This document shows positions 463-14,141 of a stretch of DNA of 14,141 nt, in pieces. The stretch comes from Jimgerdemannia flammicorona. Taxonomy: Eukaryota; Mucoromycota; Endogonomycetes; Endogonales; Endogonaceae. The translations under genes and the position numbers were made by a program. Within the stretch, counting starts at the first letter, position 1. The number at the start of each line of letters is the position of its first letter. The stretch spans positions 1 to 14,141 of the forward strand of contig RBNI01004392.1 of the NCBI GenBank assembly GCA_003990745.1, given 5' to 3'. The notes below the pieces were generated by a model. The model saw only the letters and a program-made list of their open reading frames with translations. It had not been told where the DNA came from and did no database searches.

Positions 463-1320
463 ATGCCTGCTGCCTGCCAAACCTCAAGGTCAAGGAATCA
501 CCAAGGTATCTCAGTCGAAGAAAGGATGTTCCAAGACATCAGAAGAGCTATGAGGACCTGCTCAAGAAGGACTCCTAGTGTCAACCTGGGCACTACAGAC
601 CCTTATCACTTCATTCTCTACTGCTGTGAAATGGAAACAAGGATCAACATTGCTACCGAATGCCTCCAAATGTGGCAGGAGTATGAAATAGGAAACCTCC
701 TCTACTGGGAGTTCCCACAGGCCAGCACCCAGGAGCTATAAGGTGCCACTCCCATGGATATACATGAAACAAGGATAGCTAAGAAGATCCATCAGATCTT
801 CAGGCATGCACCATGGTCAATCCCCGACTTGGAGTATGTTAGAGTCTCAGATTTCAGAAACCTGTCATCTTGCCACATCAATGCACTAGAAGCCAGGGTG
901 GCTACAGAAGCCCAGTCCACTATCACCCTCAACAGCGAAGAAGTAGAAGACTTCTGGTACCCCATCCTTCAAGACAACTCAGACCAATTCCTGCAAGGAT
1001 TGATCTCAGTATTCCAAGGCCCAAGCATCCAGGTTAGATCTCCCCAAGACCCCACATTTGTCCCCTATTTTGTGGAAGAGAACCTCATAGACTGGAGAGC
1101 TCCAGACCTTATTCCCGATTTTCCCGCCACAGCCAAATGTGATGACATCATCGGTGATGATGTCATTCCTTGTGACTTCGACATATGCGAGACACGTGAC
1201 ATATCTGAAGTATGTGAAACGCATGATCTGCATAATGAATTTGCGGATCTCATCTCCTTCAGTGATGATGACAGTGATGATGATGAAGAAGCCCCTATGG
1301 TCCTAAACTTTCTGCTCTAA
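463..1320 (+). pseudogene. LTR-encoded protein of unknown function, 5' LTR copy, one premature stop
   Basis: The frame runs from ATG 463 to TAA 1318-1320 with one internal TAA at 739-741, where the 3' LTR has CAA at the same place (CAA to TAA, a C-to-T change). The two open halves are 92 and 188 codons. I do not recognise the family. Visible features are a basic N-terminal part (an RRAMRTCSRR-like stretch), a central region rich in Trp and hydrophobic residues, two imperfect 9-residue repeats near the C terminus (ICETRDISE then VCETHDLHN, encoded at 1182-1235), and a very acidic tail (SFSDDDSDDDEEAP). No transmembrane segment or signal peptide is evident. The 5' copy keeps the ATG that is ATA in the 3' copy; the closest upstream in-frame stop is TAG at 403. 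Such a long frame in an LTR suggests the progenitor expressed it. Confidence 0.75.
1142..1166. repeat. 11-bp perfect inverted repeat with 3-nt loop inside the LTR frame
   Basis: ATGACATCATC (1142-1152) pairs exactly with GATGATGTCAT (1156-1166). The 3' LTR counterpart at 8388-8412 is also perfect although both bases next to the loop have changed (C to T on the left, G to A on the right). A related TGATGACATCA occurs at 240-250 near the LTR start. The half-site TGACATCA resembles bZIP/CRE-type sites, but these bases also encode an Asp/Ile-rich peptide, so the symmetry may be incidental. Confidence 0.45.
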
Positions 1321-1327
1321 GTTTCTT

Positions 1328-1467
1328 GTTACACTGGATAATGCCAGCACTGGTATTTTTATGTAATACTGAATAATGCCAGCACTGGTATTCTGAGGTA
1401 ATGCAAAATTGTTCCAGCATCGGCATTTTGATGTGATACCAAATAATACCAGCTCTGGAACTTAGTA
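1328..1467 (+). repeat. 4 x 35-bp tandem repeat with palindromic cores (5' LTR)
   Basis: Four diverged units in exact 35-bp register: 1328-1362, 1363-1397, 1398-1432, 1433-1467. Each starts GT(T/A/G)A and carries a CCAGCNCTGG-like imperfect palindrome about 16 bases in, usually inside AATRCCAGCACTGGTATT. The array starts 8 bp after the stop codon of the LTR frame and ends about 60 bp before the second TATA box, where an enhancer or upstream activating sequence would be expected. Spacing of 35 bp is roughly 3.3 helical turns. Function is inferred. Confidence 0.8.
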
Positions 1468-1891: not shown

Positions 1892-2980
1892 ATGTGCCCC
1901 CCTACATTCTATGGATATATTACTGAAGAGTCAATCCTGACCTTCATTGAAGACTTTGAACAATTCGCCACTGTACAAGCTCTTGGTGTGGATGCTCAAT
2001 TGGCCCTTCTACCAGTCAGCCTCAGAGGATCTGCCAGAGACAAGTTCAAGCAGCCACTATTGCTGGTGCTGATGCAGTTAAACTTGGCAATATGAAGGAC
2101 TTCCTCAGAACAACATATTATACTGAAGAGATCAAGCAAGCTCTCAAGGATCAACTCAATACTATCTGCCAGGGACTTAGTGAAGATTCCAACTCATTCT
2201 ATATCTGAATCTGCCACCAGATTATCTTGGCTGGCTATGATGACCACCTCAAGGAACAAATAGTGGATTCAACCTTCCTCAAAGGAGTTCACCCTGAAAT
2301 TACCCTAGCAATCTGATCTACCCCAGCTGTACTGACACTTAATTAGAAAGTGGTCTTTGCACAGAGATATTGGACTATCAGACACCCTGCCAAACACTCA
2401 ATGGAGAAAATAACTGGTATCAAGATGGAGCCATCAAAGCCAACTAGTATCTTACCTGCTACAGTTGTGAACAGACAACCAACCACATCTATCCCCAAGA
2501 CAGCCAAAGCTAACCCAGTGGAAGAACTCGCCAAGCAGTTTGCTGAGATGACTGCACACCTTGGTGATGTTGTTAGAGAAGTCCGAAGTGCCAATAGGAG
2601 ACCAGTGCAGAGATTTGCAGCTGCTACAGAAGAATGCAATAACATCACATGCTTCAGATGTAGAGAAGAAGGCCACTATGCAAAGAATTGCATGACCGAA
2701 ATGAGACACAAAGCCCAACCAAGCAATGCTAGCAGAACCAGAGAACAAACCAATGCAGTAGTCATCGAGGAAATTGGTGACACTGATGATGAAGAATACT
2801 ATGAGGAACTTGAATTCTACCCTGCTACTGAAGGTACCAGAACCCGGTCCAAGCTCTATGATAAGAAGAGCAACAGCAAGCCAGTTGGAAGACCAAAGAA
2901 GACCCCAGCTGTTACCATTCAAAGCAAGACCCAACCTAAGGAGATTGATCAAGACATGGAGTTAGATGAAGCTGCCCGCC
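1892..2980 (+). pseudogene. gag: Gypsy gag (capsid and nucleocapsid), frameshifted with stops
   Basis: The first ATG is at 1892. The first 50 or so codons (FYGYITEESILTFIEDFEQF) resemble the start of a Ty3/Gypsy capsid domain. The frame shifts around 2040-2056: before it coding continues in the 1892 frame, after it in the frame shared by all later gag-pol up to about 5870. Stops at 2206 (TGA), 2314 (TGA) and 2344 (TAG) fit C-to-T changes in Arg or Gln codons. The nucleocapsid has a CCHC zinc knuckle at 2650-2691 (CFRCREEGHYAKNC, spacing C-x2-C-x4-H-x4-C), which in this family binds the element RNA during packaging. An acidic stretch and a basic SKPVGRPKKTP stretch follow. The gag/protease boundary is not visible, so the end given is approximate. 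Confidence 0.88.
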
Positions 2981-3279
2981 AAATTATTGAAGGCACTACT
3001 CCAGTCTCAGGAGAAAGCAAAAGCAAGAAGGAACAGAAGCTGTGCAAGACCAAGATCCACCAGTATGACATCTACAAGGACCTCAAGGAACAGAAGGTCA
3101 ATGCCACTTTTGGACAACTAGCTGAAGTCCCTGCCTTCAGACAGCAGTTGAGAGTAGGACTTGCAACTACCATCAAGAATCAAGAGTACAAGATTGTAGA
3201 AGCCCACAATACACAAGAAGAATCCGAGAACTCAGGTGAAGAATCTGAAGACCAGTGCAAGACATCAGCCTATACTCTC

Positions 3280-3600
3280 TGCCAGATTGAAGACTGTATC
3301 TTTGATGCTATCATTGATACTGGTGCTGGAGGATGTCTTATGAGCAAGAAGGCAATTGACTGCCTAGGTTGGGATATTGAAGAGTCTACTAAGATGGTCT
3401 ATGTTATAGCAGATGGTACATGAGCTACCCCCCTTGGCAAAATCTGAGAAGTCCCCATCAAGATAGGAGGAGTCACTATTCCAGTAGACGTGATTGTTAC
3501 AAGCACCACCAACTATGATATCCTTATTGGCAACCAATGGCTTCACAAGGCCAGGGCCATCATTGACCTCAATGCCCAGAAGATGCAGATCAACTATAGA
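3280..3600 (+). pseudogene. pol: Gypsy aspartic protease domain (retropepsin-like)
   Basis: The active-site loop reads IIDTGAGGCLMSKKA, with the catalytic Asp at 3316-3318 in a DTGA motif. The C-terminal half carries NYDILIGNQWL (about 3514-3546), the conserved second hydrophobic-G motif of retropepsins. Two TGA codons (3421-3423 and 3445-3447) interrupt the flap region, each fitting an Arg CGA to TGA change. In the progenitor this domain would have cut the polyprotein; it is in the same frame as gag, so gag and pol appear to have been one continuous frame rather than a programmed frameshift. Confidence 0.9.
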
Positions 3601-4020
3601 GGGAGAAAGGTACGAGTCTCTATCAATGTCCACAAAGGAGTTCTACCAGATATGGAGGAAGAAGATGAAGAAGATATAGAGGTCTTCATGCACTCAGTGA
3701 ACAAGAACAAGAGCAAGACACCCAAGCTCACAGATGAGCAGTGGTACAACAAGATCATTGATGGCTATGCCCCTCAAGGAAGATGCCCCCATGGTACTAG
3801 AATGTACTGCTCTGAACACCTGAATGACTGCTGGTCCTGTATCAGTGAAGTCAGGAAAATCTGCCAACAGAAACATGAGCAAGAAGTTGCCGAAGCAAAA
3901 AGGAAAGCCGAAGAAGATGATCAGCCCCCAGAGCTTCAAGCTGATAGTGACAATGAGGAGGAACAAGAATCTGACATCATCCTCAAGGTCAAGAAGTTTC
4001 ACCCTGAAGCCAAGATCCCA
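3601..4020 (+). pseudogene. pol: Protease-dUTPase linker with Cys/His cluster and acidic coiled region
   Basis: About 140 residues without internal stops join protease and dUTPase. They include an acidic run (DMEEEDEEDIEV), a Cys/His cluster at 3784-3864 (C-P-H-x5-C-x2-H-x3-C-x2-C-x7-C, with CWSC at its core), then a charged, probably helical KHEQEVAEAKRKAEEDD stretch and a second acidic run. The cluster could bind a metal ion, but its spacing is not a retroviral CCHC knuckle. I do not recognise this region from other Gypsy elements. Confidence 0.6.
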
Positions 4021-4400
4021 GAATACAAGACTGAAGGAGCCATAGAAATGGACCTTGCCAGCATTCAAGATACTACCCTTGAACCACAGACCACTACCCT
4101 ACTTGGCACTGAAATTGGAGTCAAGCTATCAGAAAACCATGTCGGAATTATCAAGACCAGGAGCAGTCTGGCCAAAAGTGAAATCTCAGTTGAAGGAGGA
4201 GTAATTGACCCTGATTACACTGGTGAGATCTTTCTCATAGTCAGAAATCACAACCACACCACCCCCTTCGAAGTCAAGAAGCATAACAGGATTGGCCAGA
4301 TGCTGATCCATGAAATCAAGAAGCCCAAGATCATTGAAGCCATGGAACTCATCAAGACCAAGAGAGGAGAACAAGGCTTTGGATCTACTGGAAGAGGAGC
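4021..4400 (+). pseudogene. dUTPase domain in the Gypsy polyprotein
   Basis: This domain would hydrolyse dUTP to dUMP and pyrophosphate, limiting uracil incorporation during reverse transcription. All five trimeric-dUTPase motifs are present in order: I, AIEMDLAS around 4039-4062; II, TRSSLA around 4156-4173 (the phosphate-binding RSSLA is exact); III, GGVIDPDYTGEI around 4195-4230, with the catalytic Asp at 4207-4209; IV, NRIGQMLI at 4285-4308; V, RGEQGFGSTG at 4363-4392, the Gly-rich flexible arm. There is no stop or frameshift inside it. It lies between protease and RT. Among retroviruses, betaretroviruses carry dUTPase next to protease and non-primate lentiviruses carry it within pol; in LTR retrotransposons it is uncommon. 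Confidence 0.93.
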
Positions 4401-4566
4401 CTACACTACCACCAAGATTACCGAACTTGAGTACAAGAAAGACAAGGACCAGAATAAGCACACCTATACCATTGGAGAAAACTTTCCCCTAGAGGAACAA
4501 CTTCTCAAGATCCTGCACCAGAATGAAGGAGTACTTGCTACAGACTTTAGGGATATCCACAATTAA

Positions 4567-5502
4567 GAACCCAGGTACTACCACAATGTTGACACTGGTG
4601 ATACCAAGCCTATCTACCAGAAAGCCAGACCCATACCATCTGCCTACAGAGAGTGGCTGCAAGCAGAACTCAAGGAAATAGAAGAAGCTGGAATCATCAA
4701 GCAAGCTATCAGCCCCTGGGCCTCACCCATTGTCCTAGCCCCAAAGAAAGGAAGCAAGCCTGGAGAGTTTGTACCAAGTCTCTACATTGACTACAAGAAG
4801 CTCAATGCCATCACCAAGAAGGACAGGCAGCCCTTGCTGAATATTCAAGAAATTCTTACCACTCTTGGAAGCGAAGCCAAATACTACACCACCTTAGATC
4901 TGTTCTCAGGCTTCCATCAGATCAGTCTCACTCAAGATGCCAGTGAGAAATCAGCCTTCATCATACCTGACGCCACCTATATCTACCTGCGAATGCCATT
5001 TGGAATGTGTAATGCCCCAGCAAGTTTCCAGTGAATGATGAACAGAGTCTTCAGCAATGAGATTGGAAAATGGCTCTTTGTCTATGTTGATGATATGATC
5101 ATCTTCAGCAATACTGCATGGGAACATGTCAATCACATACAGCTAGCCCTCAAGAGGCTCAAGGAGCATGGCCTCTACATCAAGCCCAAGAAATGTAAGT
5201 TTACTGCTCAAGAAATCATCTACCTAGGACACCTCATCAACCAGACCAGAATCCACACAGACCCCATGAAGATTGAGGCTGTTGCAGCCTACCCAAGACC
5301 CAGAACAACCACAGAAGTCCACAACTTCCTTGGACTGGCCAGCTACTACAGAAGATTCATTAAAGGATACTCCAACATTGCAGCACCTATCTACGAGCTA
5401 CTGAAGAAGGAGACCAAATTTGAATGGACCAAGGAGTGCCAAGAAACCTTCAATGAACTCAAGACCAGGTTGACCCAAGCACCCATCCTCAGAAGATCAG
5501 AC
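4567..5502 (+). pseudogene. pol: Gypsy reverse transcriptase domain
   Basis: Conserved RT blocks appear in order: ISPWASPIVLAPKK near 4710, the DYKKLNAITKKD block near 4790, LDLFSGFHQI near 4895, MPFGMCNAPASFQ ending at 5031, the catalytic YVDD at 5083-5094, and YLGHLI near 5221. The thumb/connection follows with NFLGLASYYRRFI, typical of Ty3/Gypsy. A TAA (4564-4566) sits before the domain, a TGA (5032-5034) falls right after ASFQ where the family usually has Arg, and a TAG (5503-5505) marks the start of RNase H. Apart from these stops the sequence is well preserved, so the element is fairly recent. Confidence 0.96.
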
Positions 5503-5899: not shown

Positions 5900-7153
5900 T
5901 TCAACATGAATAAGGAGCTATACTATGGATTAATCAGCTACCTTGAGCAGCGGAAAATGCCCAACCACCTCGAACCCTGGACAATCACTATCATCAATTG
6001 AACTTGGAAATAGTTTGAATTAGACAACACTACACTCAGAAAAGGAGGAAAGCTAGTAATACCTGAATACAAGAAGTATCAAGTAATGAAGGAAGTACAC
6101 GAGCAAGGGTACTTAGGAGGAACCAACACATATGACAAGGCAAGAAGAACCATGTAGTGGCCCAAGATGGAAGAAGACCTGCACCAATTTGTCAAAGGGT
6201 GTGACAAGTGCCAAAAACAGAAATATGATCAGCAAGACCAGACACCCCGGTCATCAAGAATTGAGTCTATCCCCTTCCACCACATTGCAATGGATATCAT
6301 TGGACCACTACCAGTAATACTATCAGGAAACCACTATATTATAGTTATTATAGACCTCTTCACCAAATAGATAGAGGCAGGAGCATTACAAGAAGCCAAT
6401 GCCCTCTCTATAGCCAACTTCTTGCATCAAGAAATCATCTGCTGCTACAAGACACCAAAGCAAATCACCACAGACCATGGCATGGAATTTGTCAATGGAT
6501 TCCATGAGATAATATATCAGAAATATAAGATTCAGCACATCAAGACCACCACATACCACTCTCAAGGAAATGGACAGACAGAAAGAACTAACAAGACTCT
6601 CAAGAACATCCTAGCGAAGATCTCAGAGATATATGAGAATTGGGATAACTATCTCTCAACCGCCCTCTCTGTCCTATGAGATATACAGTCACAGAGCACA
6701 CATTTTACCCCAGGAGAGCTGCTCTTCGGAGAAGAAGATTCTGATGGAACCTCAGCCACAAATCTAGACCTAACTTGGAGACAGGTTAATGCAGAAATCT
6801 GGAGACTACACCAAATCCAGAAGAAGGCTGAAGATTACATCACCAAGTCACAAGTACTGACAAGGAAGAATGTGGAAAAGAATCACAAGGCCCTAGAACC
6901 CATCCGAATTGGTGAAAAGGTTCTACTGTATCGAAATATGGTAGAAGCCTCATGGTCGCAAAAACTGGAGCTCAAATGGGAAGGACCCTTCTATGTGCAA
7001 GATATCAAGGGAACTACCTTCTGGCTTAGAAAAATCTCAGAGACCATACTGCCTACTACAGTACACAGGAACAGACTCAAGAAGTACCACAAATCTATAC
7101 AAGAGAAGCAAAACATGATGACCACCCATGAGGTTCTAGTCTACGAATCATAA
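5900..7153 (+). pseudogene. pol: Gypsy integrase with GPF module, no chromodomain
   Basis: The N-terminal zinc domain keeps His at 6098-6100 and CDKC (Cys at 6200-6202 and 6209-6211), but the second His of HHCC is not evident (GGTNTY where GGH is usual). The DDE core has Asp 6293-6295, Asp 6473-6475 and Glu 6581-6583, with exactly 35 residues between the last two (D-x35-E), as expected. The C-terminal GPY/F module reads KWEGPFYV (GPF at 6983-6991) and is followed by VHRNRLKKYH. The frame ends at TAA 7151-7153 with no chromodomain. Stops at 5999 (TGA), 6011 (TAG), 6155 (TAG), 6368 (TAG) and 6677 (TGA) each fit one transition from Arg, Gln or Trp codons. Confidence 0.95.
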
Positions 7154-7456
7154 CAGCATGTCCCGTGACCAGCAGGCTATCTGTCTGGACTATTCTCTAA
7201 GGGATATGGCACTGGCAACTACTCATCCATGAGACTTTCATAGTCAGAGGAGTTTGAACTGTCAACTGATTGATCAAGATCAGAATTAGGCCCTTGCTCT
7301 ATATGAAGGGAGCGACCCTTCACCATCACGCCAAAATATAAAGGGAAGACACCAGCCCATAAACACCACTTTTTGACCCCTTGCCAGAGGTTATGGGATC
7401 AGCAAATTTTTCAGGACTGGACCAATGAAAAATGATGCTCAGGAAGATCCTTATTC
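7154..7456 (+). other. post-pol region; possible decayed third reading frame
   Basis: This is about 300 bp between the integrase stop and the polypurine tract. One frame starts with ATG at 7158, right after the pol stop, and runs into the 3' LTR to a TGA at 7572. It is interrupted at 7230 (TGA), 7287 (TAG) and 7374 (TGA), each compatible with C-to-T changes. I recognise no family, and three stops in about 138 codons is also compatible with non-coding DNA. Confidence 0.3.
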
Positions 7457-7466
7457 AGGAGAAAGA
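7457..7466 (+). other. polypurine tract (plus-strand primer)
   Basis: AGGAGAAAGA abuts the TG that opens the 3' LTR. In LTR elements the RNase H-resistant polypurine tract primes plus-strand DNA synthesis exactly here, which supports the LTR boundary. Confidence 0.88.
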
Positions 7467-7621
7467 TGTAATGGTGACTCCAGAATGATGACATCAGCAC
7501 AGGAGACAGCCTTTCCTCACAAGCCACCAGATCGGAGCACGAGAAGATTATACAGCATACAAGATGAGCAATGATGACTAACTGTGAGTCATTGTGACTA
7601 CTGCACAAGCATCCTGAAGAA

Positions 7622-7629
7622 TATAAAAG
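7622..7629 (+). promoter_or_regulatory. upstream LTR TATA box (3' LTR)
   Basis: TATAAAAG, identical to 376-383. From here a transcript would contain only the LTR frame and could end at the AATAAA at 8802, making a self-contained unit inside the 3' LTR. Confidence 0.5.
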
Positions 7630-7771
7630 AAGGATCAAGGAACTGCAGTAGCAGTAATCAACAAGAACCACCAATCCCAAAATAGCTCAAAGACTTACCA
7701 CAAACGCAATACCTGCTGCCTGCCAAATCTCAAGGTTAAGAAATCACCAAGGTATCTCAGTCAAAGAAAGG

Positions 7772-8566
7772 ATGTTCCAAGACATCAGAAGAGCTATGAG
7801 GACCTGCTCAAGAAGGACTCCTAGTGTCAACCTGGGCACTGCAGACCCTTATCACTTCATTCTCTACCACTGTAAAATGGAAACAAGGATCACCATTGCT
7901 ACCAAATGCCTCCAAATGTGGCAGGAGTATGAAATAGGAAACCTCCTCTGCCAGGAGTTCCCACAGGCCAGCACCCAGGAGCTACAAGGTGCCACTCCCA
8001 TAGATATATGCGAAACAAGGACAGCTAAGAAGATCCATCAGATCTTCAGGCATGCACCATGGTCAATCCCCAACTTGGAGTATGTTAGAGTCTCAGATTT
8101 CAGAAACCTGTCATCTTGCCGCATCAATACACTAGAAGCCAGGGTGGCTACAGAAGCCCAGTCCACTATCACTCTCAAAAGCAAAGAAGTAGAAGACTTT
8201 TGGCACCCCATCCTCCAGGACAACCCAGACCAATTCCTGCAAGGATTGATCTCAGTATTCCAAGGCCCAAGCATCCAGGTTAGATCTCCCCAAGACCCCA
8301 AATTTGTACCCTATTTTGTAGAAGAGAACCTCATAGACTGGAGAGCTCCAGACCTTGTTCCCGATTTTCCTGCCACAGCCGAACGTGATGACATCATTGG
8401 CAATGATGTCATCCCTCGTGACTTCGACATATGCAAGATGCATGACATACCTGAAGTATGCGAAACACGTGACCTACATGATGAATTCACAGATCTCATC
8501 TCCTTCAGTGATGATGACAGTGATGATGATGAAGAAGCCCCCATGGTCCTGAACTTTCTGCTCTAA
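7772..8566 (+). CDS. LTR-encoded protein of unknown function, 3' LTR copy (264 codons, intact frame)
   Basis: The frame is open from 7652 to TAA 8564-8566. The ATG used by the 5' copy has become ATA at 7709-7711, so the first remaining Met is at 7772 and the protein is about 21 residues shorter than the ancestral form. The product starts with a basic segment (MFQDIRRAMRTCSRRTPS), has a central Trp-containing region, two Cys-Glu-Thr/Met-type repeats near the C terminus, and ends with a Ser/Asp/Glu-rich tail (SFSDDDSDDDEEAPMVLNF). No known domain, signal peptide or membrane helix is recognisable. The acidic tail would suit a nuclear or chromatin-contacting accessory factor, but this is only a guess. 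It lies upstream of the second TATA box, hence in U3. Differences from the 5' copy (about 59 in 858 bp) are as dense as in the non-coding LTR. Confidence 0.65.
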   Translation: MFQDIRRAMRTCSRRTPSVNLGTADPYHFILYHCKMETRITIATKCLQMWQEYEIGNLLCQEFPQASTQELQGATPIDICETRTAKKIHQIFRHAPWSIPNLEYVRVSDFRNLSSCRINTLEARVATEAQSTITLKSKEVEDFWHPILQDNPDQFLQGLISVFQGPSIQVRSPQDPKFVPYFVEENLIDWRAPDLVPDFPATAERDDIIGNDVIPRDFDICKMHDIPEVCETRDLHDEFTDLISFSDDDSDDDEEAPMVLNFLL

Positions 8567-8573
8567 GTTCCTT

Positions 8574-8713
8574 GTTACACTGGATAATGCCAGCACTGGT
8601 ATTCTCATGTAACACTGAATAATGCCAGCACCAGTATTCTGAGGTGACGTGAAATTGTTCCAGCACCAGCATTTTGATGTGATACCAAATAATACCAGCT
8701 CTGGAACTTAGTA
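8574..8713 (+). repeat. 4 x 35-bp tandem repeat with palindromic cores (3' LTR)
   Basis: The same four-unit array as 1328-1467, 8 bp after the LTR frame's stop codon. The cores are slightly altered by transitions, for example CACCAGTATT where the 5' LTR has CACTGGTATT, a reciprocal CA/TG difference. Confidence 0.8.
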
Positions 8714-8774
8714 GTTTTAGTTATTGGAATTTATATTTAGCTTTATATCTTAGCAACCATTGAATTATATTTTA

Positions 8775-8807
8775 TATAAATATCCCTCTTATTTTCTCTG
8801 AAATAAA
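8775..8807 (+). promoter_or_regulatory. downstream LTR core: TATAAATA and AATAAA (3' LTR)
   Basis: TATAAATA at 8775-8782 and AATAAA at 8802-8807. In the 3' LTR the AATAAA is the candidate poly(A) signal for both the genomic RNA and any LTR-frame transcript; the TATA box could also send transcription outward into the flank. Confidence 0.6.
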
Positions 8808-9011
8808 GTCAGTTCCAGTTTCACTTACACACACTTCCTTGCAAGTAATCTAAAAGATAACAAGACAGTTAAAGATAAGAAGTTTGAGGACTATAAGACC
8901 TTGGGAAGGCACTCCAATAAGAACTTGCTTATAACAACTCGAGTTAGTCTAAGAGATACACCTTGAAGAGAATCTGGCATATTTGAAGGACTCAGCAACC
9001 ACTATGTGACA

Positions 9012-9017
9012 ATATAT
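9012..9017. repeat. candidate target-site duplication, right copy
   Basis: ATATAT directly after the terminal CA of the 3' LTR, matching 215-220. Confidence 0.5.
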
Positions 9018-9085
9018 AGATATAGAATATGATATGAGAGGCTTTTAATAGTCTGAAAAAAGAAAGAAAAAAAAGTATCCTATAA

Positions 9086-9690
9086 TTAATCGAGTGCTAG
9101 TATAACACTCATTCCTTTAATGCATTGCTTGAATTTTGGCCTTGGAAGGGCTTTAGTAAGTGAATCAGCAGTCATATACTCTATAGGAATATATTCCAGA
9201 TATATAGTGCTATTTTCTACATATTTTCAAATAAAGTGGTACTGTATATCAATATGTTTCATTCTGCTATAGTGTACTGGATTCTTAGTAAGTATTATCA
9301 TTGATTAGTTATCTTGCTTAATCAGTATAGAGTTCTCCTGAGTGAAACTGAGCTCCTTTAGTAGTTTGCAAAGCCAAATAGCTTTCTTTATTACCAATAA
9401 CAATGTCTGATATTCAGCTTATATAGATGAGATCACAATGAAGGATTGCTTATGTATTTGCCATGAGATTACAGATCTTTTACCAATGTGAAAGAGATAT
9501 TCAGTCATAGACTGGTGGTTATCTAAGTCTCCAACCCAATCAGTATTATAAGTACTAGATAGCTAGATGCCATTACTCTCACTTAATCTAATATTACCAT
9601 CTGAAGTAAGCATATAGTACACTGATCTCTTTAAGTATCTGAGTATCCTCTTGATTGTCATTCAATGAAAATTATCATAGTATAAGGAAT
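9086..9690 (-). pseudogene. pol: Copia RNase H and C terminus of pol
   Basis: The end of pol is plain on the minus strand: YMTADSLTKALPRPKFKQC lies at 9122-9178, the canonical Copia C-terminal block, and is followed by a stop at 9086-9088. Just upstream the NPVHYSRMKHIDIQYHFI block (about 9233-9290) marks the RNase H/C-terminal region common to Copia pol, and further upstream an SAEYQ-like block reads AEYQTLL. Stops interrupt it repeatedly, mostly where Trp, Gln or Arg is expected. Confidence 0.92.
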
Positions 9691-10680
9691 ATTGTGCCAC
9701 CTTATTCATAGTATATAATATATTAGGCCTTATTTCTAGGATAAGATATATAAGAGAGCTGACTACTTGTTAATAGGAAATGTTGTTAGTATTGTTCTTG
9801 TTAATATCATCCTTGGATATAGTATTTGGCTTTCTTAACTTCATAGAAATATCAATAGGAGTGTTGATGGGCTTACAATCACTTATATTGAAATATTTGA
9901 GAATGGCTTTGGCATAAGTTTCTTGAAAGAGATATATGGTATATATATTTCTGTTATATATGATAGATATCCCCAAAAGAAAGGATGTATTACCTATATC
10001 AGTCATCTTAAATTCTCAGCATAGAGTTTCCTTTACTCCATTAAGCCTGTTCCTGTTGATTATGATAATGATATCATCAACCCATATATCAATAAATACT
10101 ATACTATTATTATAATATTAGATATATATACAATTATCTACTTCACAATACTTGAATTCATTATCAAGAAGATGTTTGTTGATCCTCTTATTCTATAGGC
10201 ATACTGTTTGTTTAATACCATATAGTCCTTTATGTAATTTGCATATGAGATTGCCATTCTGGTTATCATATAGTTCATATTCTTGTAGTTGACAAACATA
10301 TAGTTTGGTATCTATGTCACCATTTAAGAAGGCTGTCTTAATGTCCATCTGATGGATCTCTAGGTCATATAGCACACCAATTATAAGGAGTATTCTAAGT
10401 AAAGTAAGCTTGAATACTAGTAAAAATGTTCTGTCATAATCTATGCTATAATCTTACAAGTAACCCTTAGTAATAAAATAAGCTTTATATCACTCTATAT
10501 TTTCTTTGATATTGTGCTTTATCCTATACACTCACTTGGATCTAATTGCTTGATAATTGAGTGAAAGAGATATGAGATCCTACATACTATTCTTGATGAG
10601 TAAATAATATTTCTCATCTATTACTTATTTCTATTTCTTGCTGTTAGGATTGATTATGGCTTTATCATATATACTTAGCT
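9690..10680 (-). pseudogene. pol: Copia reverse transcriptase domain
   Basis: Read on the minus strand: an N-terminal block with IDEKYYLLIKN and YRIKHNIKENIE, then LEIHQMDIKTAFLNGD at 10316-10363, LHKGLYGIKQ, the catalytic block IWVDDIIIII (WVDD at 10073-10084, where many families have YVDD), then MTDIGNTSFLLGISI starting at 10006 and the KPINTPID block. This is the RVT_2-type RT of Ty1/Copia. The two longest open pieces are 60 codons (10193-10375) and 78 codons (9770-10006); stops elsewhere break the domain. Confidence 0.95.
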
Positions 10681-11100
10681 TGCTAGAAGATATTGCAATA
10701 TACACACATTCATATGCTTTGGCATAGCTCATATGGTCCTTACATTGCTGTTGAGAGCTTATTGATATATCCCAATAGTTTTCTAAATTGGAATGATTTT
10801 CTCAGCAAATGTTGAAGCACTTTTGCTTTTATTTACCCTTTATAGATAATTCTTTGTTATTAGAGAATTTGCTGTCATCTTCATCTTTGATCACTATTAT
10901 TCTAAGCTCAGGCTTAGGTATGTATGTATAATAGTTGAAAATAATTTTGATTGACTACTAGAGGGGTGGATGGTAGTTGCACTGATTGCTATATTTATAC
11001 TAACTGAGATATAGATATAGAGGTTTTGACTAGTACTTCTATGTAGGGTTCCAAGCCATTTCCTTTTTCTCTGAACTACATATATATTATACAAAATGAC
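10681..11100 (-). other. Copia integrase-RT linker, no conserved domain seen
   Basis: This lies between the integrase C terminus and the RT start, where Copia polyproteins have a poorly conserved, low-complexity linker. It is AT-rich with many stops on both strands. Ser/Thr-rich pieces appear on the minus strand around 10897-11094, but no family is recognisable. Confidence 0.5.
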
Positions 11101-12060
11101 TATATACTACTTGTGTAGATCTCATAGTTAGTATACTTTGCTAGAATATTCAAGAAACACATGCTTGCTCACCTTGGGTTCAAATTTATCCCAGAGGGTA
11201 TTGCTTTTGTTGAGGATATATGTATGTCTCACAACTGAATATATATAGATGAGATATATCGGTTTTGGATCTGCTCCATAATTCTTTAGAGATAAGATCA
11301 TTATCTCTGGAATACTTACTATTGCCATAATCCTTACTTAGTGATCAAGTTACATATTAGTTGTAGATATATACTATAGTATTTATAACTTTGGCCCAAT
11401 AAGAATATGACAATCTAGTAGTATTGATCATCATACATACTATTTCTATGGCTGTATAGTTAAATTACTCAGACACACTATTCTGCTAAAGTATATAGAA
11501 AGCCATCATTTGATAGATTATGTTATGTTTTATCAGAAACTACTTAAATGTGTTATTGATATATTTATATTCATTGTCTGATCATATAGTACATATTCTA
11601 CATCCAGTTTCATTTTTGTTAATCACTTTGAATTCTTTGAATTTATTTAAGACTTTGCTCTTTACTGATAAGAGATATATATATGTATACCCTATATATA
11701 TAATTGTTAATGAATGTGAGAAAATACCTCTTGCTGGAGTATGATGGAGTATGCATTAGCCTGTATATATCTGTATACATGAGGTCAAGGATCTCAGATA
11801 TATACTTTAATCATTCTTTGAATGGTCACTAGGATGCTTTTTTTACTATGCAATCTTCATAGAAACTGTTATGCAGATATACTACTAGTAATCCTCTGAT
11901 ATATTTACTTCTTATCATATATTTGAGACTCATCTTGCCAATATGTTCTAAGTATTGATACCACATATTGGATACATTAGGTATAGTTGTCATATATATG
12001 AAGGCTTTTATGCTATTTAGTATACTATTGATCATATAAAGATTACCACATTTTGAGGCT
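11100..12060 (-). pseudogene. pol: Copia integrase (pre-integrase zinc domain, DDE core, C-terminal part)
   Basis: On the minus strand the zinc-binding N-terminal region reads YLEHIGKMSLKYMIRSKY and then CEDCIVKKAS within 11829-12035; the first His of the family's H-x-R-x-G-H pattern is now Tyr. The first catalytic Asp lies in LMYTDIYR (about 11760-11785), followed by RYFLTFINNY (family: FIDDY). The second Asp is in SDNEYKYINN (about 11555-11585) and the Glu in QNSVSE (about 11465-11482). The C-terminal FEPKVSKHVFLEYSSKVY block is at 11128-11181. Stops separate all of these. Confidence 0.9.
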
Positions 12061-12099
12061 ATTATTAACCTCTTATTGTTATGAAAATTATATATACAC

Positions 12100-12400
12100 T
12101 GTTGTGCTCTTTAAATATATATCTTTATTGCCATAGGTTATTATTTTGCCTATAGAGAAAAGGTTCTTTCCTATCTCTAGAGTATATAGTATATCTGCCA
12201 GAGTAGCAGTAGGCTTGACAATATTTCTGTAGAGATATATATCAATATTTCCCTTTTCTTGAGCATAGATGATATTATTATCTCCTAACTTAATAAGTAT
12301 AGAGTGTTCAAATGATTGATATGTGGAGAACTATTCTCTGTGTGGCATCATATATTGTATAGCTCTAGAATCTATTAACCAGATATCATTATTATCAGCA
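12100..12400 (-). pseudogene. pol: Copia aspartic protease with damaged active site
   Basis: The minus strand reads NDIWLIDSRAIQYMMPHRE around the active site, with DSRA at 12361-12372. The family consensus there is D-S-G-A followed by T/S-x-H-M. Here the Gly is Arg, the residue after Ala is Ile and the His is Tyr, each one transition away from the family codon, so the protease is inactive. The downstream part (LADILYTLEIGKNLFSIGK) matches the protease-to-integrase junction of Copia elements. Confidence 0.88.
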
Positions 12401-12543
12401 ATATTAGCATATTTACCAGATATATGGCTAGATATATAGTTCATAGTTTTTCTATCTATACTACTGATGGTATTTACATTATCACTTCTTGTTGACCCAA
12501 AAGTATTTCACTGACTGGTACTTATAGATAATGAGTTAGTAGC

Positions 12544-12575
<32 letters not shown>
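12544..12575. repeat. (AAT)n microsatellite, about 32 bp
   Basis: Nearly eleven perfect AAT units lie between the nucleocapsid and protease regions of the Copia relic. In the ancestral frame this would be a homopolymeric amino-acid run or an expansion after inactivation; the perfection of the units favours a recent expansion. Confidence 0.9.
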
Positions 12576-12599
12576 GTTGATAGATTTGGTGCTAGATCC

Positions 12600-13591
12600 C
12601 ATACTAGCAGAACTGATATTACTGATAGAATTGGTGGTAGAGTTGGCAGCTTGTACAAAAAATAGTTACTACTTTCATCAGTTTTAGTAGTATTTATATT
12701 GTCATACTTCTCTCAATAGTTCCTATATCTACATTACCAATACTGGTTTTTTTCACACTTTTCACTACTCTCTTTATTATTTTCCCAGCAATAATATTGG
12801 TATTTCTTATATTTATACTTGTCACAGTATTCACAATAACCATCATACTTAGTTGATTGGCTATTATATTATTAAGCTTGGGTTTGGACTTATTGACTTT
12901 ATTGACTATATCTTTGACCTCATTTAGTACCACATCTGTGGAACCTGTAGAATGCCCTTTCATCATTGTTTTCTTCAGCACTATTTCCTTAGTACATTTT
13001 CTCATTCATGAGACTTATTATCATATAGATATAGTCTGAAAGGCTGCCACTCTCATGCATGGCTGTGATGACAATATTATATATATCCAGAAGTCCCCTT
13101 GTAAGTACTATAACCTTATCTTCATTGCTAATATAATCTGCAGACATACTGAGGGAATTCACTTTAATTACTATATCATTGATACAACTGGCATATTCAC
13201 AGATACTCTCCTTGGGCTTTATTTAAAAATTGAATAGCTGAGATTTCAGATAGAATCTATTTGATACAGATGCTTATATATAATAATTTCATAGGGCTTC
13301 TCATGCCTCATTGGCTATATTTACATGTATTACAAGCTTTATTTATGAGTTTAATAATATGAATATAATCATGCATAATGCTTGCCAATTGTTTATAGTG
13401 TCATAGTCTTGAATCTACACTTGTAGCTTTGTATACTCTGTCAGACTGCATTCATCAAGAAGATTCATTATATAGAATGCCCAGATAGTGTAATCTTTCC
13501 CATTAAAGATTGGGATGAACCTCTTAACTGTATTTATACTTACAATAGAGACTGCTCTCATCACTGGAACACTTACAATTGGGGTATCCAT
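12600..13591 (-). pseudogene. gag: Copia gag with degenerate zinc knuckle
   Basis: The likely initiator ATG is at 13591 (minus). After about 24 residues comes RFIPIFNGKDYTIWAF (about 13472-13520), the classic F-x-G-x-x-Y-x-x-W start of Copia capsid. A nucleocapsid motif at 12788-12835 reads YCEYCDKYKYKKYQYYCW: Cys residues are in place, but Tyr stands where His is expected (a CAT/CAC to TAT/TAC change). Many stops break the frame; a longer open stretch on the same strand at 12694-13005 reads the wrong frame through this motif and is not the gag product. Confidence 0.87.
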
Positions 13592-13702
13592 ATTGCTAGA
13601 TTGTTCATCACTTGATATTTCTAGTGTATATGATTGTATAGCATATATTTACAAGATATATATATATATATATTTATTATTATTATTTTGCTATATCTAC
13701 TT

Positions 13703-13722
13703 AGTGCTAGCAGGGCTCATAA
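13703..13722 (-). other. Copia primer-binding site, initiator tRNA(Met) anticodon-arm type
   Basis: On the plus strand GCAGGGCTCATAA is the sequence of the initiator tRNA(Met) anticodon stem-loop; on the minus (sense) strand it is the complement that pairs with it. Drosophila copia and several fungal Copia elements prime from an internal cut of this tRNA rather than its 3' end. The site lies four bases inside the 5' LTR boundary at 13727, exactly where a primer site belongs. Confidence 0.82.
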
Positions 13723-13726
13723 TCTT

Positions 13727-13853
13727 TGTTGGAAAGAGGGGCATTTTTATTGAGTTTGTATAGAATATATATTTCATATATTACTGATAGATAATATAAA
13801 ACTGATAAAATTATCAATTATATATTGATATATATCAAGTTGTTATCCCAACA
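13727..13853 (-). repeat. Copia 5' LTR (127 bp)
   Basis: On the plus strand this starts TGTTGG (13727-13732) and ends CCAACA (13848-13853), a perfect 6-bp terminal inverted repeat with TG...CA ends. The inner edge is next to the primer-binding site and gag starts about 135 bp further inside. 127 bp is very short for an LTR. No second copy was found in the window to confirm it. Confidence 0.78.
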
Positions 13854-14108
13854 CTCCTGAATTTAGCCTTCTTATAAAATACTAACCAGAAGAAAATATA
13901 TCTTACTAATATTTATTAAAATGATACCCTTTATCTTAATGATAAATATTGGTAATATTCTCTAAAATAGAGATTTTATTAAGATTTACATTATTATTCT
14001 ATAGGATTTTAATGGGTTAAACCAAACCATATCTTATAATAACTAAAAAAATATTAATTTATAAGTTCAATTTTTTTAGAATTAGTATAAATAGACTGAT
14101 AGGTAGGA

Positions 14109-14141
<33 letters not shown>
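13854..14141. other. AT-rich right flank, no gene seen
   Basis: Beyond the Copia 5' LTR the sequence is very AT-rich, with small palindromes such as CTCTAAAATAGAG near 13961 and no coding signature. It ends in an uninterrupted run of at least 31 Ts (14111-14141) that continues to the window edge. Confidence 0.6.
14111..14141. repeat. poly-T homopolymer (at least 31 bp)
   Basis: A pure T run reaching the window edge. It could be the reverse-strand poly(A) tail of a non-LTR retroelement to its right, a simple repeat, or an assembly edge artefact. Confidence 0.85.

Follow-up and report, generated by a model that had tools for sequence, protein, structure and literature searches.

Can the long terminal repeats (LTRs) of a Gypsy retrotransposon house a complete protein-coding gene? 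To our knowledge, protein genes placed in an LTR are familiar chiefly from a handful of animal retroviruses. The question is raised by a contig of the fungus Jimgerdemannia flammicorona. An initial annotation, made from the letters alone, had claimed a frame of about 285 codons in each LTR of a Gypsy element. The window analyzed here is that entire contig, 14,141 bases long, and the genome searched comprises 134.8 Mb in 7,754 contigs. We find that a selected gene is present inside the LTRs of this Gypsy lineage, and that it most likely lies in U3.

The element and the frame in its LTRs

The 5' LTR spans positions 221–1765 and the 3' LTR positions 7467–9011, both on the plus strand, as defined by direct repeat alignment together with solo LTRs. 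Specifically, the ends of solo LTRs fix these borders and the strandless 4-bp target site duplication, ATAT, at 217–220 and 9012–9015. Each LTR is 1545 bp long, with a GC content of 42.2% versus 28.9% in the flank (9013–14141). The pair aligns without gaps (1441 of 1546 bases identical, 93%), and within the final 1545-base borders 98 of the 105 differences are transitions. Between the LTRs, on the plus strand, lie a gag zinc knuckle followed by the start of an aspartic protease (2350–3420; PF00098, 1.8e-5; protease 0.0065, below its cut-off), a pol dUTPase domain situated after the protease region and before the reverse transcriptase (3490–4563; PF00692, 3.9e-26), part of a reverse transcriptase (5035–5502; PF00078, 7.2e-13), and part of an integrase core (6422–6676; PF00665, 0.0068, below its cut-off, with fitting place and order). 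The element is a Ty3/Gypsy LTR retrotransposon with decayed gag-pol: it has paired TG...CA LTRs, a short target duplication, a gag zinc knuckle, and a reverse transcriptase. The order of protease, reverse transcriptase, and integrase matches also fits, but those to the protease and integrase are both sub-cut-off in these decayed frames.

The frame occupies positions 463–1320 of the plus strand in the 5' LTR, where its 285 codons are open except for a TAA at 739–741. In the 3' LTR, it occupies 7709–8566, also on the plus strand, where ATA replaces the start codon (7709–7711) and the frame is then open to 8566. Both copies are as the initial annotation had described them, including their different lesions. 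LTR alignment and solo LTR borders place the frame wholly inside the LTR. The 3' LTR stays open on the plus strand for as many as 302 codons, versus a maximum of 185 in 2000 first-order Markov sequences with matching composition. Antisense open frames of 84–89 codons also exist at both LTR starts (180–434 and 7411–7680, minus strand); they are probably due to chance.

A protein search of the genome, in which 145 of 4,367 first candidates were scored, yielded at least 145 nearly full-length matches. Among those listed, identity is 83–89%, the query itself aside, and about half carry stops, which the search reads through. The 48 family A copies studied are protein-search matches and near matches, with two duplicates dropped, and this manner of finding biases them to good frames. 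The ATG is kept in 38 of these copies, internal stops are absent from 20, and 29 of the 36 internal stops present lie one transition away from CAA, CAG, or TGG. Start codon, open frame, and stop codon coexist in 16 copies of this search-biased set, which supports the earlier suggestion that the progenitor had the gene whole. Internal sequence adjoins 15 of the 48 loci only after the LTR and 14 only before it. It adjoins neither side in nine loci near a contig end and in ten with room on both sides. Solo LTRs of family A have perfect 4-bp target duplications in 10 of 10 cases, a TG start in eight, and a CA end in eight, the remaining ends being altered. The solo LTRs (10 loci, e.g., L063 and L056) keep the gene, some without a stop in the first 214 codons, and such stop-free solo LTRs might still express it.

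Elements chosen by their integrase also carry the frame. From at least 150 integrase matches, 21 were examined: three come from the end of the list, and the other 18 are plus-strand matches with enough contig sequence beside them. A frame of at least 136 codons stands at the expected distance in 19 of the 21; related elements lacking it had been proposed as a ground for refutation. The exceptions are L083, with no frame at the place, and L087, with only 25 codons, interrupted. In five of the 19, the gene is split over two reading frames, and another, L076, bears a deletion. In L076, a 207-bp LTR tail (1257–1474), 94% identical, lies directly before the start of the full LTR, and that same LTR has lost about 320 bp within the frame.

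The gene extends to more distant relatives. The 10 decayed loci of family C encode proteins 34–52% identical to the query, and alignment of family A with family C LTRs is limited to bases 147 (at the earliest) to 886, approximately TATA box 1 through the first 214 codons. Upstream of its LTR, one family C locus (L055) shows homology to integrase (30% identity, 5e-11); no gag-pol match was seen in the flanks of the other nine.

Purifying selection on the frame

Selection was gauged from pairwise dN/dS values for codons 1–214, summarized as medians. Within family A, the median is 0.29 (190 pairs; 20 of the 21 copies, of 48, with no stop there), a value that picking these 20 copies for absence of stops may have somewhat lowered. 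It is 0.23 between families A and B (60 pairs; all three B copies then fetched), 0.15 between A and C (200 pairs, with all 10 C copies; dS is close to saturation), 0.17 between B and C (30 pairs), and 0.24 within C (45 pairs). The +1 and +2 frames give 0.57–1.07 across the same five family comparisons. When codons in CG, TG, or CA contexts are excluded, the true frame gives 0.12–0.23 versus 0.53–1.69 in the shifted frames. The antisense frames are low in one case (0.32–0.42), probably because the silent positions of that frame fall on those of the true one, and range from 0.48 to 1.34 in the other two. Transversions at four-fold sites are about threefold those at second codon positions for A–B, A–C, and B–C, and 1.6-fold within C. 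Family A, whose copies differ mostly by post-insertion decay, has no such excess (0.0013 at four-fold sites versus 0.0032 at second positions). A site-frequency test within family A is uninformative because 261 of the 292 variants among the 48 copies are transitions.

A comparison with the integrase calibrates these values. In 15 loci readable for both and not selected for absence of stops, dN/dS is 0.34 in the core of the frame, 0.39 in its tail, and 0.35 in the integrase part. Purifying selection on the LTR gene is about as strong as that on the integrase of the element. The initial annotation had named a dN/dS near 1 as a refutation; the medians are instead 0.15–0.35 in the comparisons drawn.

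Insertions and deletions carry the same signature. Among the 48 protein-selected copies, indels of in-frame length make up 81 of 83 inside the frame versus 3 of 100 outside it; for unique events, multiples of three are 26 of 28 and 3 of 35, respectively. The count was repeated on copies picked by integrase or DNA because a protein search favors intact frames. This second set of 21 copies combines 17 of the 21 integrase-selected elements, the rearranged L076, L081, L083, and L087 being excluded, with four DNA-search matches outside the protein-search list. In this set, 24 of the 33 unique events inside the frame have lengths divisible by three, versus 3 of 29 outside (Fisher p = 6e-7). All 24 occur in the acidic tail, a variable region with 29 events in total, and none of the four indels in the first 214 codons is a multiple of three. 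The tail is rich in GAT/GAC, and slippage by three there may contribute to the excess, but indel lengths of up to 84 bp can hardly be slippage.

Could the frame be captured host or non-coding DNA, or merely a chance open stretch? The lack of a significant match to a database family accords with such an origin, but dN/dS, the in-frame indels, the length relative to chance, and the presence of the frame in three diverged families all speak against it, and we consider it exceedingly improbable. The 302-codon length versus the 185-codon maximum, together with dN/dS and the in-frame indels, led to rejection of this candidate. Moreover, no database search showed captured host or non-coding DNA, the other outcome that had been listed as counting against the gene.

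Putative promoter and poly(A) signals and a proposed transcript map

The flanking signals named in the initial annotation are present in both LTRs, all on the plus strand. TATA box 1 (TATAAAAG), the putative promoter of the gene, precedes the frame at 376–383, as identified by motif search and family conservation, and motif search places its 3' LTR counterpart at 7622–7629. TATA box 2 (TATAAATA), the putative promoter of genomic RNA, follows the frame at 1529–1536, again from motif search and family conservation, and AATAAA, the presumed poly(A) signal, lies at 1556–1561, 27 bp from the start of TATA box 2. In the 3' LTR, motif search finds TATA box 2 and AATAAA within 8775–8807 (AATAAA at 8802). 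Outside the LTRs, two further TATAAATA sites (207 and 5581) and one AATAAA (24) turned up in the same search.

These signals recur across families. TATA box 1 stands before the frame in 47 of 48 family A copies, 3 of 3 in family B, and 7 of 10 in family C (one of the seven a decayed variant). The 27-bp distance from the start of TATA box 2 to AATAAA is kept in 46 of 48 family A copies (L024 and L026 end earlier) and in all three of family B. In family C, AATAAA occurs 25–31 bp past TATAAATA in seven of 10 loci; two of the three loci without that pair (L039 and L047) are cut by the contig end, judging by locus length. The order of TATA box, gene, TATA box, and AATAAA is kept in most loci of this distant family.

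In the proposed map, TATA box 1 would give rise to a short transcript of about 1.2 kb, ending past AATAAA, in each of the two LTRs and likewise in a solo LTR. Transcription typically starts about 30 bp downstream of a TATA box. At that distance, TATA box 2 would drive genomic RNA that starts at or just beyond AATAAA, so that the poly(A) signal would be absent from the 5' end of the genomic RNA, and the RNA would be cut only at the 3' LTR. R would be very short in this map, and everything before about position 1560, the gene included, would be U3, with TATA box 1 serving the gene alone. Because TATA box 2 lies 25–31 bp before AATAAA, we place the gene most probably in U3, where both LTRs and any solo LTR could express it. 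The conserved signals of three families thereby support the earlier proposal of a U3 location and a separate transcription unit, and suggest that the whole gene is in U3, with genomic RNA starting at or just past AATAAA.

Positions 1547–1598, around and after AATAAA, are the least conserved stretch downstream of the repeat array described below (0.86–0.89 versus 0.93–0.99). Related LTRs vary there by small insertions and replacements, unlike in the surroundings. This stretch may mark the R/U5 border.

An alternative map makes TATA box 1 the genomic promoter, in which case the frame would lie not in U3 but in a 1.2-kb R or leader upstream of gag. TATA box 1 is about as conserved as TATA box 2, as that map would have it. 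Yet AATAAA would then fall in the 5' part of the genomic RNA, with gag behind a long first ORF, and the spacing of TATA box 2 and AATAAA is held at 25–31 bp in three families, among copies with both. That spacing is approximately the distance that keeps AATAAA out of an RNA started from TATA box 2, given the usual start distance. We judge the long-leader arrangement to be quite unlikely, and we retain the U3 placement.

Between the gene and TATA box 2 lies a tandem array of about four units of roughly 35 bp, with a core like AATGCCAGCACTGGTATT that has dyad symmetry (1327–1465, plus strand); these are proposed control sites. The array of the 3' LTR is at 8573–8711 (plus strand; repeat search and LTR alignment). 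Array indels among copies most commonly measure 35 bp, many are that length or a multiple of it, and lengths of 70 and 175 bp also occur. By its position, the array resembles an upstream activating sequence, a reading that we infer from the layout. Dyads in the array number 0.91 per copy versus 0.093 in shuffles, an approximately tenfold enrichment, and their density is 5.9 per kb (0.91 per 155 bases) versus 5.5 per kb in LTR bases 1256–1400. Support for the palindromes as candidate binding sites is modest. The dyad core was not seen in the three family C LTRs inspected. After the stop codon, the family C loci L040, L041, and L046 have other short repeats (TTAGTTAGTT words) in place of the array.

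The product, its possible role, and known systems

The product has a basic N terminus, a conserved core, and an acidic tail ending DLISF...LNFLL. Protein-database searches returned seven homologs (P0001–P0007), six in a first search and P0007 in a second. They lie on short contigs from JGI or ENA, none longer than 1625 bases, and one is annotated "hypothetical protein." The homologs largely keep the stretches HQIFRHAPWSIPNLEY, EEFWNPILQDNPDQF, YFVEEN.IDWR, DLISF, and LNFLL; P0005 is without DLISF. In P0002, net charge is +8 in residues 1–60 and –14 in residues 211–270, bearing out the basic N terminus and acidic tail claimed at the outset. Equally, the absence of a family match held in Pfam, NCBIfam, PHROGs, and PDB sequences. 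Specifically, the window protein matched no Pfam family at E ≤ 1, and seven aligned members at E ≤ 10 matched only ATG5_HBR (0.028, two members) and NpmA (0.026, one member). Pfam contains models of the mouse mammary tumor virus (MMTV) superantigen, Nef, and BEL, and those searches gave no match to the MMTV superantigen, Nef, or foamy BEL families. NCBIfam gave nothing significant (P0005 had a weak SpvA match at 0.03, 13.9 bits versus a cut-off of 503), PHROGs gave only nonsignificant matches of 0.1–0.12 to families of unknown function, and PDB sequences gave none that was significant (one at 1.4). No relative was found in IMG/VR, from which records near this genome were possibly left out. An AlphaFold model built from eight sequences is mostly helix, with a pLDDT of 41, and is unusable. 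As far as searched, the protein family is apparently new.

What might such a protein do? The basic N terminus, the acidic tail, and the 35-bp array before TATA box 2 lead us to suggest a trans-acting regulator of its own LTR. The product would act via the repeat array just upstream of TATA box 2, raising or timing the synthesis of genomic RNA. Foamy virus Tas and HTLV Tax are activators of their own LTRs. In our view, the best fit for the gene, the array, and the two TATA boxes together is a self-regulating module that works through activation or anti-silencing. Several findings weaken the regulator reading: no DNA-binding domain was recognized in the Pfam and NCBIfam searches, the structural model is poor, and a charge pattern is a weak guide. 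The module is likewise weakened by a dyad-core density barely above that of another part of the LTR and by the different repeats of family C. Taken whole, the explanation that the gene lies in U3 under its own TATA box 1 and encodes a trans-acting LTR regulator is quite possible, if short of probable.

Two other roles merit consideration. VANC proteins of VANDAL transposons are anti-silencing factors, and the U3 protein could similarly bind its own repeats and remove or block DNA methylation or small-RNA silencing. The adjoining array suits such a role, and decay by transitions, seen in the LTR pair and in the family A variants, fits the loss of methylated C. Furthermore, the available part of one report describes CG methylation and small RNAs at transposable elements of R. 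irregularis (PMC8647823), a fungus whose kinship to this genome is a guess. But nothing sets anti-silencing apart from plain promoter activation, and the family searches yielded no homology to a known suppressor; we rate it as unlikely. The protein could alternatively be a structural or RNA-handling accessory, either a Gag partner or an exporter of genomic RNA like CERV of Cer1, which is required for genomic RNA export according to the accessible portion of PMC10309623. The basic N terminus and the helices of the very-low-confidence model are compatible with an accessory, but the element already has a zinc-knuckle gag, the U3 protein has no such match, and a separate promoter would be unnecessary for this kind of product. 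An accessory role appears doubtful.

Several known systems invite comparison. The sag gene of the betaretrovirus MMTV is likewise a gene in a retroelement LTR, the LTR here being 1545 bp long; host, element family, and protein differ, and the U3 protein has no Pfam superantigen match. Measured against a sag-type layout, protein-level selection on the frame is present, and the position inside U3 is a probable one, suggested by TATA/AATAAA spacing. Foamy virus bel/Tas and HTLV Tax are alike in the proposed mode only, as element-coded activators of their own LTR; no sequence relation was seen, and the present gene is wholly inside the LTR. VANDAL elements likewise join a protein gene and a short-repeat array, but they are DNA transposons, and no VANC match was seen in the family searches. 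The nef gene of primate lentiviruses overlaps the LTR only partially, whereas here the entire gene, with its TATA box, is inside. Like the present frame, nef is a long ORF within the 5'-most third of the LTR, according to the portion of PMC2664473 available. Finally, extra ORFs of plant Gypsy elements (Grande gene23, Retand, and RIRE2) and of fungal Boty are likewise conserved extra genes of no known family, but they sit downstream of pol and ahead of the 3' LTR, many of them as antisense frames, while the present gene is in sense and in both LTRs. The Grande product is nuclear and its gene is transcribed from its own promoter, as stated in the accessible text of PMC7264820.

Our literature search found no gene inside a Gypsy LTR, or inside an LTR in a fungus; subscription papers fall mostly outside that search, and priority is not proven. 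No such LTR gene appears in the accessible portions of PMC8647823, PMC11075540, PMC3248453, PMC11963269, PMC7264820, PMC2664473, PMC12037069, PMC6875170, and PMC10787394; the "LTR ORFs" in the available part of PMC12037069 are gag-pol frames.

LTRs are normally treated as non-coding control DNA, and here they hold a whole selected gene, with a putative TATA box of its own and a presumed poly(A) signal that it shares, across diverged families. A plausible reading, though short of probable, is that a non-retroviral Gypsy lineage independently evolved a U3-encoded regulator; every LTR, solo LTRs included, would then be both a regulator gene and a set of target sites, enabling genome-wide control of the family from its numerous LTRs. 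If the layout is right, U3 genes reach beyond a few vertebrate retroviruses, and an apparently new protein family opens to study. Solo LTRs, normally counted as dead, could keep expressing an element protein, and repeat annotation that masks LTRs would conceal such genes.
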